From positions 62,001 to 126,000 of the forward strand of contig NZ_FOXM01000005.1 in assembly GCF_900115715.1 (NCBI RefSeq): a stretch of 64,000 nt of DNA. Reading direction: 5' to 3'. Under the pieces are notes generated by a model. It was given only the letters and a program-made list of their open reading frames with translations. It had not been told where the DNA came from and made no database searches. The position numbers and the translations under genes are program-made. Positions 10,420 to 19,647 of the stretch are shown in pieces. Source of the stretch: Geopseudomonas sagittaria. Its GTDB lineage: Bacteria > Pseudomonadota > Gammaproteobacteria > Pseudomonadales > Pseudomonadaceae. Position 1 is the stretch's first letter. The number at the start of each line of letters is the position of its first letter.

Positions 10420-12597
10420 TTACAGGCCGTTCTTGGCCTTGAACTCGCGGCGACGGCGGTGCAGCACCGGCTCGGTGTAGCCGTTGGGCTGCTTGGTGCC
10501 CTCGACGCACAGCTCGACCGCCGCCTGGAAGGCGATGTTGTCGTCGAAGTTCGGCGCCATCGGGCGGTACAGCGGGTCTTCGGCGTTCTGGCGGTCAACC
10601 ACCAGCGCCATGCGCTTCATGGTCTCCATCACCTGCTCGACCGAGCACACGCCGTGGCGCAGCCAGTTGGCGATGTGCTGGCTGGAGATGCGCAGGGTGG
10701 CGCGGTCTTCCATCAGGCCGATGTCGTTGATGTCCGGCACCTTGGAGCAGCCGACACCCTGGTCGATCCAGCGCACCACGTAGCCGAGGATGCCCTGGGC
10801 GTTGTTGTCCAGCTCGTTCTGGATCTCTTCCGCGCTCCAGCTGATGCTCGGCGCCAGCGGGATGGTCAGGATGTCGTCCAGCGAGGCGCGCTCGCGCTTG
10901 GCCAGCTCCTGCTGGCGGGCGAACACGTCGACCTTGTGGTAGTGCAGGGCGTGCAGGGCGGCGGCGGTCGGCGACGGTACCCAGGCGGTGTTGGCGCCGG
11001 CCAGCGGGTGGGCGATCTTCTGCGCCAGCATGCCGGCCATCAGGTCGGGCATGGCCCACATGCCCTTGCCGATCTGCGCGCGGCCGGACAGGCCGGCCTT
11101 CAGGCCGATGTCGACGTTCCAGTTCTCGTAGGCGCTGATCCACTTGGCGCCCTTGATGTCGCCCTTGCGGATGAACGCGCCGGCTTCCATGGAGGTGTGC
11201 AGCTCGTCGCCGGTGCGGTCGAGGAAGCCGGTGTTGATGAACACCACGCGCTCCTTGGCGGCCTCGATGCAGGCCTTGAGGTTGACCGTGGTGCGGCGCT
11301 CCTCGTCCATGATGCCGACCTTGAGGGTGTTGCGGGGCAGGCCGAGGACGTCCTCGACGCGGCCGAACAGCTCGTTGGTGAAGGCGGCTTCTTCAGGGCC
11401 GTGCATCTTCGGCTTGACGATGTACACGCTGCCGGTGCGGGTGTTCTTGCGGCTGGTGTTGCCGTTGAGGTTGTGGATGGCGATCAGGCTGGTGACCAGG
11501 CCGTCCATGATGCCTTCCGGCACCTCGTTGCCGTCCTTGTCGAGGATCGCGTCGTTGGTCATCAGGTGACCGACGTTGCGCACGAACAGCAGGGAACGGC
11601 CGTGCAGGGTCAGCTCGCCGCCGTTCGCCGCGGTGTAGACGCGGTCCGGGTTCATGGTGCGGGTGAAGGTGCTGCCACCCTTGGCCACTTCCTCGGCCAG
11701 GTCGCCCTTCATCAGGCCCAGCCAGTTCTTGTAGGCGATGACCTTGTCGTCGGCATCGACCGCGGCGACCGAGTCTTCGCAGTCCATGATGGTGGTCAGC
11801 GCGGCTTCCATCAGCACGTCCTTCACGCCGGCCGCGTCGGTCTTGCCGATCTGGCTGCTCGGATCGATCTGGATCTCGAAGTGGATGCCGTTGTTCTTCA
11901 GCAGCACGGCCTGCGGCGCGCTGGCTTCGCCCTGGAAGCCGATCAGCTGGGCCGGGTTCTTCAGGCCGGTGCTGCTGCCGTTGGCCAGGCTGACCACCAG
12001 CTTGCCGGCTTCGATGCGGTAGCCGGTGGCGTCGACGTGGGAAGCGCCTTCCAGCGGCGCGGCCTCGTCGAGGAAGTCGCGGGCGAAGGCGATGACCTTG
12101 GCGCCGCGCACCGGGTTGTAGCCCTTGCCTTTCTCGGCGCCGTCTTCTTCGCTGATCGCGTCGGTGCCGTACAGGGCGTCGTACAGCGAACCCCAGCGGG
12201 CGTTGGCGGCGTTGAGGGCGAAGCGCGCGTTCATCACCGGCACCACCAGCTGCGGGCCGGCCATGCGGGCGATCTCGTCGTCGACGTTCTCGGTGCTGAT
12301 GGTGAAGTCCGCGGGTTCCGGCAGCAGGTAGCCGATTTCCTGCAGGAAGGCCTTGTAGGCAACGGCGTCGTGGGCCTGGCCGGCACGCGCCTGATGCCAG
12401 GCGTCGATCTGCGCCTGCAGGGCGTCGCGCTTGGCCAGCAGGGCCTTGTTCTTCGGGGCCAGGTCGTGAATCAGGGCGTCGGCACCCTGCCAGAACTGTT
12501 CGGCGCTGACGCCGGTGCCGGGAATGGCTTCGTTGGTGACGAAGTCGAACAGGACTTTGGCGACCTGCAGGCCACCGGCTTGAACGCGTTCAGTCAT
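10420..12597 (-). CDS. glcB: Malate synthase G
   Basis: 725 residues, the usual length of isoform G. It condenses glyoxylate with acetyl-CoA to malate in the glyoxylate shunt and glycolate use, in the cytoplasm. The family is recognisable along the whole protein: [19 protein letters not shown] at the start, the [11 protein letters not shown] segment mid-protein, and [16 protein letters not shown] in the catalytic barrel. I chose the ATG at 12597 because gagg lies 8-10 bases upstream and family members start there; a longer frame to 12627 lacks this support. It is monocistronic, and the DnaA-box array lies upstream of its promoter. Confidence 0.97.
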
Positions 12598-12759
12598 TGC
12601 TTGCCTCACTCTGCTTGGGAGCCGCATCGGACTGCGGCCCGCCGTTCGTGTAGTACCGATCGCAGGATACTACATGAAGCCGGATGAGAAATGTATGAAG
12701 GGCAGGCACCCCTTCGACAAAAGTCGTGGAGAACCGCGACCCAAGGCGGATGCGTGGGG
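12598..12759 (-). promoter_or_regulatory. glcB promoter and leader region
   Basis: About 160 bp between the glcB start and the first DnaA-box-like element. On the minus strand a plausible -10, tagtat (near 12671-12676), has tacatt 17 bp upstream as a weak -35. The assignment is tentative. Because the box array begins right behind this region, DnaA binding could in principle affect glcB. Confidence 0.35.
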
Positions 12760-13412
12760 TTGTGCACAGGCGCCGCAGGGCATGGGCGGGACACTTGTGC
12801 ACAGGGCTGCGCGATCGCCTCGGGCGGCCGCCGCGCGGTTGTCCACAGTTGTCCCCGTTTGGCGTGGATGGGGCTGTGGACAAGCCTTGGGCACAGTGCT
12901 GCGGCCTTAGTGCCCCGTGGCTTGCAGGGGATCGTACGATTTTTGTGCAGGGCCGCGAAGGTTATGCACTGCTGGGCTGTATGGGGTTGTGGATAACCTC
13001 TGGAGCCCTTGCTGCAGGCCTTGTGCGCCGTGCTCTGCAGGCCGCTGGTGGTTTTTTGCCCAGTTTTGCCGGCGGCAGTTGCTAACAGCTTGGCTGGATG
13101 GCCGCTCCACGCCGGTGGATAACCGCAGGATTGTCCACAATCGACGTGGGCCAGGCTGTGGACAAGCTGCGTGCACATTGCTGCAGGCCAGCGGTCACGG
13201 GGCCTGCGGCGCTATGGTCGAATTTTGTACAGGGCTGGGCGGGGCGATTTTTCCGCGACTTGTCCACGATTGCGGGGGACCAGCCTGTGGATAAGCTCGG
13301 GATGGATCGCCAGGCCCCGCCCTGTGCGGGCTCTGGCGGTGATCTGGCGGTTTTTTGCACAGCGGACTTGAGCCTGCTTGTGCACACCCGGCGGGGATCA
13401 GTGTGTGGATAA
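12760..13412. repeat. Array of five degenerate repeat units with paired DnaA-box-like 9-mers
   Basis: Non-coding array. Exact TTATCCACA (minus strand) is at 12988-12996, 13286-13294 and 13404-13412. Exact TTGTCCACA, the form common in GC-rich genomes, is at 12839 (+), 12875 (-), 13131 (+) and 13157 (-). One-mismatch forms are at 12962 (+, TTATGCACT), 13114 (-, TTATCCACC) and 13260 (+, TTGTCCACG). TTTTGCACA is at 13353, and TTGTGCACA at 12760, 12795 and 13378. In five units a forward element and a reverse TGTGGAYAA start exactly 26 bp apart (12849/12875, 12962/12988, 13131/13157, 13260/13286, 13378/13404). Each unit also carries a ctgcaggcc-like box and a ttttgnncag box. No AT-rich unwinding element is seen. 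Confidence 0.88.
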
Positions 13413-13422
13413 CCTTGGGGCA

Positions 13423-13461
13423 ATGCCCTGCAGGCCACGGCTGGCGTGGCCTGCAGGGCAT
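13423..13461. terminator. Perfect 17-bp inverted repeat at the end of the array
   Basis: The arms 13423-13439 and 13445-13461 (atgccctgcaggccacg and its complement) are perfectly complementary around a 5-base loop. It lies 15 bp after the rarD stop on the minus strand and probably ends or protects that transcript. There is no T-run. The arm contains the ctgcaggcc box that recurs in the adjacent repeat units, so it may have grown out of the array. Confidence 0.7.
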
Positions 13462-13475
13462 CGTGCAGAAAATGA

Positions 13476-14360
13476 TCAGCGGTGGCGGAGGACTCGCCAG
13501 ATGTCCAGGCTGTACACCAGCAGGGCCGCCCAGATGCAGGCGAAGGCCAGCAGGTTGGCCGGCGCCAGTGGCTCGTCGTAGAGGAACACCGCCAGCAGCA
13601 GCACCAGGGTCGGCGCCAGGTACTGCAGAAAGCCCAGGGTGGCGTAGGGCAGGTGGCGCGCGGCGGCGTTGAAGCAGATCAGCGGGATCAGCGTCACCGG
13701 TCCGGCCATGGCCAGCCACCAGCCCTGCGCGCTGCTCCAGAAGTCGGCCTGGCTGCTCGCCGCCGTCGGGTGCAGCCACAGCCAGCCGAGGGCGACCGGC
13801 AGCAGCAGCCAGGTTTCCACCGCCAGGCCGGGCAGCGCCGCCACCGGCGCCTGCTTGCGGATCAGCCCGTAGAAGGCGAAGGACAGCGCCAGCAGCAGCG
13901 ATACCCAGGGCAGGCTGCCGAGCTGCCAGACCTGCTGCGCCACGCCGCTGGCGGCCAGCGCCACGGCCAGCCACTGCAGGCGGCGCAGGCGCTCGCCGAG
14001 CAGCAGCATGCCGAGCAGCACGTTGACCAGCGGATTGATGTAGTAGCCGAGGCTGGCCTCGAGCATGTGGCCGTTGTTCACCGCCCACACGTAGAGCAGC
14101 CAGTTGCAGGCGATCAGCAGTCCGGACAGCGCCAGCATGGCCAGGCGCCGCGGGTGGGCGCGCAGCTCGCGCCACCAGCCAGGATGCTTCCACACCAGCA
14201 GCAACAGCACGGCGCCCAGGGCCGACCAGAGCACGCGGTGGACGACGATCTCGAGGGCGGGGATCTGCTCGAGGGCCTTGAAGTAGAGAGGAAACAGGCC
14301 CCAGATGACATAGGCGGTCAAACCGAGGATGTAGCCGCGGCGGGGATTGGGGGTGCTCAT
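13476..14360 (-). CDS. rarD: RarD-family permease (EamA/DMT superfamily)
   Basis: 294 residues with ten hydrophobic segments and the RarD hallmark start R-G-Y-I-L-G-L-T-A-Y-V-I-W-G-L-F-P-L-Y-F-K. Members are inner-membrane permeases; the E. coli gene is annotated as linked to chloramphenicol sensitivity but its real substrate is not settled. I chose the ATG at 14360 because ggag precedes it by 6-9 bases; an upstream ATG at 14402 would add an unlikely 14-residue extension. It appears monocistronic. Confidence 0.9.
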   Translation of the reverse strand: MSTPNPRRGYILGLTAYVIWGLFPLYFKALEQIPALEIVVHRVLWSALGAVLLLLVWKHPGWWRELRAHPRRLAMLALSGLLIACNWLLYVWAVNNGHMLEASLGYYINPLVNVLLGMLLLGERLRRLQWLAVALAASGVAQQVWQLGSLPWVSLLLALSFAFYGLIRKQAPVAALPGLAVETWLLLPVALGWLWLHPTAASSQADFWSSAQGWWLAMAGPVTLIPLICFNAAARHLPYATLGFLQYLAPTLVLLLAVFLYDEPLAPANLLAFACIWAALLVYSLDIWRVLRHR

Positions 14361-14432
14361 CGGCGCTCCAATATTTAGGAAGCTAAGTAAATGGTGCGCC
14401 ATTCTAGTGCATGGGTTTGGGACTGTCTGTGG

Positions 14433-15806: not shown

Positions 15807-16511
15807 TCAGTCCGGCGCCGGCGTGCGCGCCAGGCAGTAGACATCCACCCGCGCTGCGCCAGCCCGGCGCAGCAGGCGCGCCAGCGCCTCGGCGGTGGCG
15901 CCGGTGGTCAGCACGTCGTCGACCAGGGCCAGGTGGCGACCGGCCACCGCCGCCGGATCGGCGAGGGCGAAGGCGCGGCGCAGGTTGCCGCGCCGCGCCG
16001 CGGCGTCCAGCTGTTGCTGGGCGGCGGTGTCCTGCGGGCGCAGCAGCAGATCCTCGCGCCAGGGCAGCGCCAGCTCGGCGGCCAGCCAGTGCGCCAGCAG
16101 GCCGGCCTGATTGAAGCCGCGCCGGCGCAGGCGCGGCCGGGCCAGCGGCACCGGCAGCAGCAGCTCGGGACGCGGCAGACCGTCCAGCCAGGCATGGCGC
16201 AGATGCTCGGCCAGCAGGCCGGCGAGCAGGTGGCCGAGCGGCCAGGCACTGCGGTGCTTGAAGCGGGTGATCAGGGCATCGAGCGGGAAGGCATAGCGCC
16301 ACGGCGTCTCGACGTGCTGGAAGGCCGGCGCGCGGCGCAGGCAGCCGGCGCAGACCAGGCCGTCCGCCGGCAGCGGCACGGCGCACACCCGGCAGTGCGG
16401 GCCGAGCCAGGGCAGCTCGCGTTCGCAGTCGCTGCACAGCGGCAGGCGGGTATCGGTGGGCAGATCGCAGAGCAGGCAGTGTTGGCTGTTTTTTAACCAT
16501 TGGTAGACCAT
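15807..16511 (-). CDS. ComF-family amidophosphoribosyltransferase-like protein
   Basis: 234 residues. An N-terminal zinc-finger-like part has four C-x2-C pairs (starting C-L-L-C near residue 12, then C-S-D-C, C-R-V-C and C-A-G-C). The phosphoribosyltransferase domain carries the PRPP loop [10 protein letters not shown] (about 197-206). ComF proteins support DNA uptake or its recycling in naturally competent bacteria; the Pseudomonas protein has no proven role. The ATG at 16511 has gaggga 5-10 bases upstream. It runs divergently from bioB, with a short shared promoter region of about 110 bp. Confidence 0.88.
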
Positions 16512-16620
16512 GCATTCCCTCGCAGTTGACAGCGCCCGAGGCGGCCATAGAAGATGCGGCCATCCGTGCCGCCCCGGGATTCTACTGTGGGTGCGCTGCC
16601 CCCTAACAAGGAAACCGCCC

Positions 16621-17673
16621 ATGAGTGCCAACGCTTCCCTGCGCCACGACTGGACCCTCGCCGAGGTCCGCGCCCTGTACGAGCAGCCGTTCAACGACCT
16701 GCTGTTCCAGGCCCAGACCGTGCACCGCCAGCACTTCAATCCCAACCGCGTGCAGGTTTCCACCCTGCTGTCGATCAAGACCGGCGCCTGCCCGGAAGAC
16801 TGCAAGTACTGCCCGCAGTCCGGCCACTACAACACCGGCCTGGATAAAGAGAAGCTGATGGAGGTGCAGAAGGTCCTGCAGGCCGCCGCCGAGGCCAAGG
16901 CCATCGGCTCGACGCGCTTCTGCATGGGCGCGGCGTGGAAGCACCCGTCGGCCAAGGACATGCCCTACGTGCTGGAGATGGTCAAGGGCGTCAAGGCCAT
17001 GGGCCTGGAGACCTGCATGACCCTCGGCCGCCTCGACGCCGAGCAGACCAAGGCGCTGGCCGACGCCGGCCTCGACTACTACAACCACAACCTCGACACC
17101 TCGCCGGAGTTCTACGGCAACATCATCACCACCCGCACCTACGGCGAGCGTCTGCAGACCCTCAGCTACGTGCGCGAGGCGGGGATGAAGATCTGCTCCG
17201 GCGGCATCCTCGGCATGGGCGAGTCGCTGGACGACCGCATGGGCCTGCTGATCCAGCTGGCCAACCTGCCGGAACATCCCGAGAGCGTGCCGATCAACAT
17301 GCTGGTCAAGGTAGCCGGCACGCCGCTGGAGAAGGCCGACGACGTCGATCCGTTCGACTTCATCCGCACCCTCGCCGTCGCCCGCATCCTCATGCCCGAA
17401 TCCCACGTGCGCCTGTCCGCCGGCCGCGAGCAGATGAACGAGCAGATGCAGGCCCTGGCGTTCTTCGCCGGCGCCAACTCGATCTTCTACGGCGAGAAGC
17501 TGCTGACCACCGGCAACCCGGACGCCGACCGCGACATGCGCCTGTTCGCGCGCCTGGGCATCCAGCCGGAAGCCCGCGAGGAACACGCCGACGAGGTGCA
17601 CCAGGCCGCCATCGAGGAGGCGCTGATCGAGCAGCGCAACAGCGCACTGTTCCACGACGCTGCGGCGGTCTGA
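16621..17673 (+). CDS. bioB: Biotin synthase
   Basis: 350 residues. A radical-SAM enzyme that inserts sulfur into dethiobiotin, the last step of biotin synthesis. The [4Fe-4S]-SAM motif is C57-P-E-D-C61-K-Y-C64. Further family cysteines lie in C-M-G-A-A-W and in E-T-C-M-T-L-G. The ATG at 16621 follows aagga with good spacing; an extended frame upstream is unlikely. First gene of the bioBFHC run; a REP-like hairpin separates it from bioF, a place where transcripts may be processed. Confidence 0.98.
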
Positions 17674-17682
17674 TCTGTCCAT

Positions 17683-17716
17683 CCCCGTAGGGGCGAATGA
17701 ATTCGCCCCTACGGGG
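17683..17716. repeat. REP-like palindrome between bioB and bioF
   Basis: A perfect 16-bp inverted repeat: 17683-17698 and 17701-17716, with two bases between the arms. The core ggggcgaatgaattcgcccc recurs in a larger inverted repeat at 24261-24313, which marks a dispersed repeat family rather than a gene-specific site. It could fold in the bio mRNA and set the bioB:bioF ratio. Confidence 0.88.
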
Positions 17717-17743
17717 GCCCGCCTTACCCAGCATCGAGCCGCC

Positions 17744-18931
17744 ATGTCCTTCGACCTCGCCTCCCGTCTCGCCGCCCGCCGCGCCGACAACCTGTTCCGC
17801 CAGCGCCCGCTGCTGCAGAGCCCGCAGGGCCCGGAGGTGGTGGTCGACGGCCAGCCGCTGCTGGCCTTCTGCTCCAACGACTACCTGGGCCTGGCCAACC
17901 ATCCCGAGGTGATCCGCGCCCTGCAGCAGGGCGCGCAGCAATGGGGCGTCGGTGGCGGCGCCTCGCACCTGGTGATCGGCCACAGCCAGCCGCACCACGA
18001 GCTGGAGGAGGCGCTGGCCGAGTTCACCGGCCGCCCGCGCGCGCTGCTGTTCTCCACCGGCTACATGGCCAACCTGGCCGCGGTCACCGCGCTGGTGGGG
18101 CAGGGCGACAGCGTGCTGGAGGACCGCCTCAACCACGCCTCCCTGCTGGACGGCGGCCTGCTCAGCGGCGCGCGCTTTTCGCGCTACCTGCACAACGACG
18201 CCGACAGCCTGGCCAAGCGCCTGGACAAGGCCGAGGGCAACAGTCTGGTGGTCACCGACGGCGTGTTCAGCATGGACGGCGACCTCGCCGACCTGCCGGC
18301 GCTGTGTGCCGAAGCGAAAAAGCGTGGCGCCTGGCTGATGGTCGACGACGCCCACGGCTTCGGCCCGCTGGGCGCCAGCGGCGGCGGCATCGTCGAGCAC
18401 TTCGGCCTGGGGATCGACGAGGTGCCGGTGCTGGTCGGCACCCTCGGCAAGGCGTTCGGCACCGCCGGCGCCTTCGTCGCCGGCAGCGAGGAGCTGATCG
18501 AGACGCTGATCCAGTTCGCCCGTCCGTATATCTACACCACCAGCCAGCCGCCGGCCGTGGCCTGCGCCACACTGAAGAGCCTCGAGCTGCTGCGCAGCGA
18601 AGGCTGGCGCCGCGAGCATCTCAACCAGTTGATCGCCCGCTTCCGCGCCGGCGCCACCCAGCTCGGTCTCGAGCTGATGGACAGCCCGACGCCGATCCAG
18701 CCGATCCTGATCGGCGACAGCGCCCGTGCCGTCGAGTTTTCCCGCCTGCTGCGCGAGCGCGGCCTGCTGGTCGGCGCGATCCGCCCCCCGACCGTGCCGG
18801 CCGGCACCGCGCGCCTGCGGGTGACCCTGTCTGCCGCGCACAGCTTCGAGCAGGTCGAGCGCCTGCTGGCCGCGCTGGGCGAATGCCAGGCGCTGCTGCC
18901 CAGCGAGGAGGGCAACCAATGCACCGCCTGA
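17744..18931 (+). CDS. bioF: 8-amino-7-oxononanoate synthase
   Basis: 395 residues. A PLP enzyme that joins pimeloyl-ACP and alanine to form KAPA (8-amino-7-oxononanoate). The PLP lysine is K236 in [11 protein letters not shown], and D-D-A-H-G-F-G (201-207) holds the cofactor aspartate and histidine. Length is typical. The stop overlaps the bioH start by 13 bp, so bioH is probably translated by coupling. Confidence 0.97.
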
Positions 18932-19647
18932 TCCTGCTGCCCGGCTGGGGCCTCGGCCCGGCCGCGCTGCAACCGCTGGTCGATGCCCTCAACGGGCTGG
19001 GCCTGCCGACCGAGCTGGCCGAGCTGCCGGCGCTGACCTCGAGCGATCCCGAGGCCTGGCTGGACGAGCTGGACGCGCGCCTGCCGGCCGACTGCTGGCT
19101 GGGCGGCTGGTCGCTGGGCGGCATGCTCGCCGCGGCGCTGGCCGCGCGGCGCGGCGCGCGCTGCCGGGGCCTGCTGACCCTGGCCAGCAACGCCTGCTTC
19201 GTCGCCCGCGCCGGCTGGCCGAGCGCGATGGACGAAGAGACCTTCGCCGCCTTCCGCGCCGGCTGCGCCAGCGATGCCGCCGCCACCCTCAAGCGCTTTG
19301 CCATGCTCTGCGCCCAGGGCTGCCTTGATGCCCGCGCGCTCGGCCGCCAGCTGCAGCAGGGCCTGCCGGCGCAGGACGCCGCGCAGCTGCTCGCCGGCCT
19401 CGACGTGCTGGCCGCGCTGGACAACCGCGCGGCGCTGGCGAGCTTCGCCGGTCCGCAGCTGCACCTCTTGGCCGAGGGCGACGCCCTGGTCCCGTCCGCC
19501 GCCGCCGCCACCGCGGCCTTGCTGGCCCTGCTGCCGGCCGGCGAGGTCGACGTCCTGGAAGGCAGCGGCCACGCCCTGGTCCTCGAGCAGCCGCAGGCGC
19601 TGGCCGCGCTGCTCGCCGAGTTCATCCGCGAGGCCGGCGATGACTGA
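18919..19647 (+). CDS. bioH: Pimeloyl-ACP methyl ester esterase
   Basis: 242 residues of the alpha/beta-hydrolase fold. It removes the methyl ester that BioC adds, releasing pimeloyl-ACP for BioF. The nucleophile is S65 in G-W-S-L-G-G; the acid is the Asp in A-E-G-D-A-L-V-P and the base the His in G-S-G-H-A-L. The ATG at 18919 lies inside the end of bioF, and the stop overlaps the bioC start by 8 bp. This overlapping F-H-C order is a usual Pseudomonas arrangement. Confidence 0.95.

Follow-up and report, generated by a model that had tools for sequence, protein, structure and literature searches.

A putative five-fold array of DARS-like DnaA-binding modules next to rarD in Geopseudomonas sagittaria

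The non-coding DNA between glcB and rarD of Geopseudomonas sagittaria probably harbors a five-fold array of DARS-like modules for DnaA binding, of the type that reactivates DnaA, a reading that rests on the arrangement of predicted binding sites. The window analyzed (a stretch of 64,000 nucleotides on contig C26 of a 4.61 Mb assembly in 44 contigs, all of which was scanned) carries both flanking genes on its reverse strand: glcB, encoding malate synthase G (10420-12627, Pfam malate synthase domains), and, at 13476-14402, a gene that Pfam assigns to the EamA-type transporters, which we presume to be rarD, as named in the original prediction, and which served as the synteny anchor. These assignments agree with the location given in that prediction, and its count of seven exact TTRTCCACA sites within 574 bp is confirmed: four copies of TTGTCCACA and three of TTATCCACA lie at 12839-13412 and are the only ones in the window, for which 0.31 would be expected. 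The near-matches, given there as about seven, turned out to be five (12 sites with at most one mismatch in 12700-13480, minus the seven exact ones). With the relaxed pattern TTRTNCACA, all ten exact sites of the window fall here too, in 653 bp.

A chance cluster was rejected, as none of 100 dinucleotide shuffles of the window reached seven TTRTCCACA sites and the locus is the densest 600 bp of the assembly. In the latter the pattern occurs 59 times, compared to 13 for the reversed pattern used as a control, and the top 600-bp window is the rarD-glcB array with its seven sites. The runners-up outside it contain five each and both lie on C27, the contig that carries dnaA (C27:35786), so that the genome holds no second cluster of equal density. 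The region upstream of glcB (12628-12760), including CGACAAAAGTCG, forms a well conserved block in the eight aligned genomes of the genus (8/8), and perhaps represents control sequences of glcB that are distinct from the array.

The order of the boxes, overlooked in the original prediction, is that of five direct copies of one 35-bp module with fixed internal spacing. Repeat finding recovered a 43-nt element in five copies, which share 60-72% identity with the one taken as reference and are spaced by 113, 169, 129, and 118 bp. Each module consists of box I on the plus strand, 5 bp, a degenerate box II on the minus strand, 3 bp, and box III on the minus strand (9-5-9-3-9); in every unit the outer plus-strand and minus-strand boxes start exactly 26 bp apart, and the weaker third 9-mer, box II, sits between them. 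Box I has 0-2 mismatches in the five units and box II has 3-4. Given as boxes I, II (-), and III (-), the plus-strand cores are TTGTCCCCG (2 mismatches), CCATCCACG, and TTGTCCACA in unit 1 (12849-12883); TTATGCACT, CCATACAGC, and TTATCCACA in unit 2 (12962-12996); TTGTCCACA, TGGCCCACG, and TTGTCCACA in unit 3 (13131-13165); TTGTCCACG, TGGTCCCCC, and TTATCCACA in unit 4 (13260-13294); and TTGTGCACA, TGATCCCCG, and TTATCCACA in unit 5 (13378-13412). Outside the five cores there are extra plus-strand DnaA boxes at 12760-12768 and 12795-12803 (both TTGTGCACA) and, immediately before unit 1, at 12839-12847 (TTGTCCACA), plus a minus-strand near-box before unit 3 (13114-13122, TTATCCACC). A perfect 17-bp inverted repeat (13423-13461) lies between the core and the putative Fis site of unit 5. 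Inverted repeats of the CTGCAGG or CTGCAGGCC type were also seen between core and Fis site at 13011-13041 and 13181-13210, as well as at 13423-13461, and those of the CTGCAGGCC type occur in other Pseudomonas too.

Scoring for Fis used the degenerate consensus GNNYRNNWNNYRNNC. The window has nine 15-mers that match it with an AT-rich center, and three of them lie in the array, each exactly 50 bp after box III. Candidate Fis sites occupy +50 or +51 in all five units, three of them exact and two with one mismatch: 12934-12948 (unit 1, +50, no mismatches), 13047-13061 (unit 2, +50, one mismatch), 13216-13230 (unit 3, +50, no mismatches), 13346-13360 (unit 4, +51, one mismatch), and 13463-13477 (unit 5, +50, no mismatches, with 2 bp lying inside the end of rarD), all on the plus strand.

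The same offset recurs beyond the window. Among 78 distinct cores with a weak box II, a set that includes orthologues and hence cores that are not independent, a Fis match was found at +50 in 54, at +38 in 3, and at no other downstream offset; among 43 cores with a strong box II, equally non-independent and including both E. coli ones, 16 carry it, 13 of them at +51 and the other 3 at +50. An exact match at +50/+51 is thus absent from 24/78 and 27/43 cores, respectively. The published consensus GnnYAnnnnnTRnnC matched exactly at +50/+51 in 12/78 weak-box-II and 17/43 strong-box-II cores, and at one mismatch in 58 and 35 of them, with a mean of 0.1 (78 weak) and 0.03 (43 strong) exact matches at other offsets. 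A second group of Fis matches was seen upstream, most often at 62-63 bp ahead of the point where box III ends (19 matches among the 78 weak-box-II cores).

As for IHF, 43 matches with 0-1 mismatch were counted over the 43 strong-box-II cores, and 18 of these matches fall at +84 to +86. None was found from 60 bp before to 140 bp after the cores of the window, where the best candidate has 2 mismatches. At 17 of the 18 rarD loci of other species that carry the module, the IHF consensus is matched with 0-1 mismatch at a place that runs into the beginning of box I; this is partly so by construction, as three of the nine positions specified for IHF belong to box I. The genome encodes a Fis homolog (64% identity with the E. 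coli protein over residues 24-96) and, on C25, a short gene of the DnaA family that we take to be hda.

A single scanner found the identical 9-5-9-3-9 layout in E. coli DARS1 (NC_000913.3, 813107), in DARS2 (2969135), and in all five units. According to the reviews PMC5742627 and PMC10380432, box I of the DARS core is opposed to boxes II and III with equal spacing in both loci, and the latter source reports the head-to-head pair of boxes I and II as essential; Fis is described as an accessory protein of DARS2 in PMC4245941. The array shares with DARS2, which lies upstream of mutH, the core layout (box order, orientation, and spacing), a putative accessory role for Fis, and an intergenic position, but DARS2 has one core and an IHF site, whereas the array has five tandem modules, other neighbors, no IHF match with 0-1 mismatch at its cores, a weak box II with a strong box III, and Fis candidates in a position different from the Fis sites of DARS2. 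DARS1, between bioD and uvrB, shares the core geometry with the units but is a single core with a strong box II and no Fis-consensus match with an AT-rich center in the following 160 bp. Box II has 0-1 mismatches in DARS1 and DARS2 compared to 3-4 in the units, and both E. coli loci lack the match at +50 that characterizes the latter (+50/+51), making the fixed Fis offset a trait of this bacterial family. DARS1 sits beside the bio operon, and ORFs that we read as bioB and bioF, located in 16510-19000 of the window, begin about 3 kb from the array, which could be chance or old synteny. The array is best read as a new DARS variant; we do not class it as a proven DARS because box II is weak and no good IHF site was found at the cores of the window.

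Of the two E. coli precedents named in the original prediction, DARS is thus favored by the three-box geometry and the fixed Fis offset, and datA is not. The array shares with datA a dense intergenic cluster of DnaA boxes remote from oriC. The essential boxes of datA, however, all face in one direction and require an IHF site (PMC5742627), whereas the array is built of head-to-head pairs, and the search for IHF gave no match with 0-1 mismatch at the cores of the window. A datA-type site was rejected on both grounds.

The boxes are conserved in relatives. In 8/8 genomes of the genus there are five units whose Fis candidate at +50/+51 has no more than one mismatch, and these genomes align across the array region with many indels, as expected for non-coding DNA; in G001 the scan gave six entries, two of which are one place read on both strands, and box II of the last unit has 5 mismatches. 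A blastn search with the array region matched 12/56 genomes, its own included, at E <= 0.001, and found no match in the E. coli genomes searched, so that conservation beyond the genus rests on geometry and not on overall similarity. Synteny was analyzed in the first 30 (L051-L080) of 80 GlcB loci, 26 of which have rarD beside glcB. The strict module was found in 18 of these 26, twice over in L071 and L075, and a Fis match at +50 accompanies it in all 18. It lies 67-72 bp beyond the final codon of rarD in 17/18 (120 bp in L077), and its distance from glcB ranges from 0.9 to 1.7 kb (2.9 kb in L056). As the latter varies while the former stays at about 70 bp, the module tracks rarD and not glcB. 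Three more loci (L060, L064, and L068) retain box III and the Fis match at +50 but have a degraded box I or II, and five (L054, L063, L065, L067, and L072) have no module. In L051, from Azotobacter chroococcum, whose GlcB is 87% identical to that of the window, one exact box and no array were seen at glcB, and no rarD match lies within the fetched 6-kb glcB flanks.

The spacing itself emerged from an open search for any inverted pair of boxes with gaps of 3-32 bp across 59 genomes of the family. Of 58 places found, 29 have a gap of 5 bp and 17 a gap of 17 bp, with the other 28 lengths accounting for 12 together, so that 46/58 fall on the distances between boxes I and II and boxes I and III of DARS; leaving out the four genomes of the genus among the 59 gave 40/47, and the reversed control of the search gave 2 places. 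At 19 of the 5-bp-gap places (one per genome), a third box located 3 bp away, taken on whichever side scored better, shows no more than one mismatch in 12/19 and no more than two in 17/19. The 17-bp-gap pair is present in 8/8 genomes of the genus, and there only at the rarD-glcB array locus, whereas a slightly wider pair pattern was found in 154/298 genomes of the family and is not confined to the neighborhood of rarD; its reversed control gave no hits among the matches listed for the family genomes.

Conservation of box II was assessed in 63 distinct 35-mers from loci L001-L080, chosen by their outer boxes alone. A box-like 9-mer (at most 3 mismatches) occupies the DARS box II place in 36% of them, both orientations pooled, compared to at most 2% at the other inner places, with nine inner places compared in all. 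Box II is therefore conserved among these cores, but as a weak box. Some 17-bp-gap pairs have no recognizable box II, as is the case in L064 at 11786; this locus has two inverted pairs with a 17-bp gap beyond glcB (11786 and 11958), with no clear box II (4 mismatches).

Three cores of the 9-5-9-3-9 layout are found elsewhere in the genome (G000), differing from the array units in being single-copy and in having a strong box II: site A (L168, C38:86842), which comes just after an FKBP-like gene, as judged by a domain scan in the relative L137, and precedes a small ORF; site B (L167, C20:59670), upstream of rmuC; and site C (L169, C29:104194), on the 3' side of a LonB-like gene. Sites A and B have a Fis match at +51 and an IHF consensus at +85, and site C has neither match. 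A and B are present in 8/8 genomes of the genus and C in 6/8. In three one-contig genomes of the genus the distance from dnaA is 30.4, 29.7, and 38.5% of the genome for site A, 18.9, 18.6, and 21.0% for site B, and 10.4, 13.5, and 19.1% for the array; in E. coli, DARS1 and DARS2 lie at about 33% and 21% from oriC, as computed from their positions. E. coli DARS1 and DARS2 seem to have their nearest equivalents in sites A and B. Elsewhere in this genome (C40:112856-112934 and 116981-117010), opposite-strand pairs of TTATCCACA, 21 bp from start to start, were seen about 4 kb apart.

Across the family, cores built in this way adjoin unrelated genes (rmuC, FKBP, LonB-like, FMN-dependent dehydrogenase, and DUF808). 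In seven weak-box-II loci examined away from rarD, the Fis match lies at +50 in L050 and L021 and at +38 in L035 and L045, and is absent from L039, L040, and L020. A second weak-box-II module was seen in L035, L045, and L036, in L035 beside the FMN-dependent dehydrogenase gene, and lies 39.7-42.4% of the genome from dnaA, on the terminus side (G286, G289, and G292).

The main rival to the DARS-type reading is a DnaA sink, in which the array, replicated fairly early, would titrate DnaA or promote ATP hydrolysis in a datA-like manner and so delay initiation, and to which we attach roughly a one-in-five chance. The ten exact TTRTNCACA sites and the top TTRTCCACA count per 600 bp of the assembly speak in its favor, as does the weak middle box flanked by strong ones, which suits holding better than exchange; so does the position of the array, whose distance from dnaA amounts to 7.0-13.5% of the genome in six genomes (19.1% in G001). 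In this set, the rarD neighborhood of G289 was deduced from its 35-mer, which L046 has in identical form. However, titration needs no 35-bp geometry, no conserved weak middle box, and no constant Fis offset, and all three are kept, whereas the unidirectional boxes and the IHF site that datA requires, according to PMC5742627, are not seen in the array. An exchange array of the DARS type is preferred over a sink or a promoter precisely because the three-box geometry and the Fis offset are kept, and not merely many boxes.

The array could also be a region through which DnaA and Fis control transcription of glcB or read-through from rarD, as its place upstream of glcB and the control of transcription by DnaA in E. 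coli (PMC11317965) would allow, but this is improbable given that the module elsewhere lies about 70 bp past rarD at 0.9-1.7 kb from glcB, and that similarly built cores occur beside unrelated genes. The glcB promoter suggested in the original prediction was rejected, the module staying by rarD even where, in L056, glcB is about 2.9 kb away. More doubtful still is a family of RNA or DNA hairpin repeats with incidental boxes: the outer boxes are inverted repeats and a perfect one lies beside unit 5, but just 25/78 cores allow base pairing at position 5 of the outer arms and 17/78 at all nine positions, and each arm retains the DnaA-box consensus. This candidate was rejected on the poor arm pairing and on Rfam, whose two matches in 12400-13700, both to miRNAs, fall well short of the respective gathering scores. 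The least probable of all is that the locus serves as a second, cryptic origin of replication; a dense cluster of DnaA boxes with Fis-like sites would suit it, but dnaA lies on another contig (C27) with box clusters of its own, the order of the boxes is that of DARS, and the origin was rejected on the position of dnaA, in keeping with the earlier statement that the locus is not a normal oriC.

Under the DARS-type reading, ADP-DnaA would bind the strong boxes I and III, and the protomer on box III would recruit a second DnaA onto the neighboring weak box II, 3 bp away and in the same direction. The box II protomer would then meet that of box I head-to-head, loosening the ADP, and apo-DnaA would leave and reload with ATP. 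Fis may shape the DNA for this exchange, perhaps together with IHF at box I in most of the other Pseudomonas examined. A weak box II would make a single module poor, for which five copies and the extra boxes may compensate; the array may also hold a share of the free DnaA. The predicted outcome is a rise in ATP-DnaA before initiation, against inactivation of the Hda type. It is possible, and we propose it only tentatively, that the Pseudomonadaceae have a distinct class of DnaA-recharging sites in which Fis locked at 50 bp replaces a strong box II, with the five-copy array of the genus as the main exchange station beside single sites like DARS1 and DARS2.

In the literature found, the biology of DARS is worked out in E. 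coli and near relatives, and no paper describing DARS in Pseudomonas was found by titles and abstract openings. The founding DARS study, Fujimitsu 2009, is cited in PMC10380432 as the source for sequences of this kind across many proteobacteria, and may therefore already include single DARS-like sites from Pseudomonas. The 35-bp module with Fis at a fixed distance provides a defined DNA for tests with purified DnaA and loci that can be deleted in Pseudomonas, and the natural occurrence of strong- and weak-box-II versions in one genome could show which box or accessory protein drives ADP release. The array thereby suggests how Pseudomonas-like bacteria may time the replication of their DNA.
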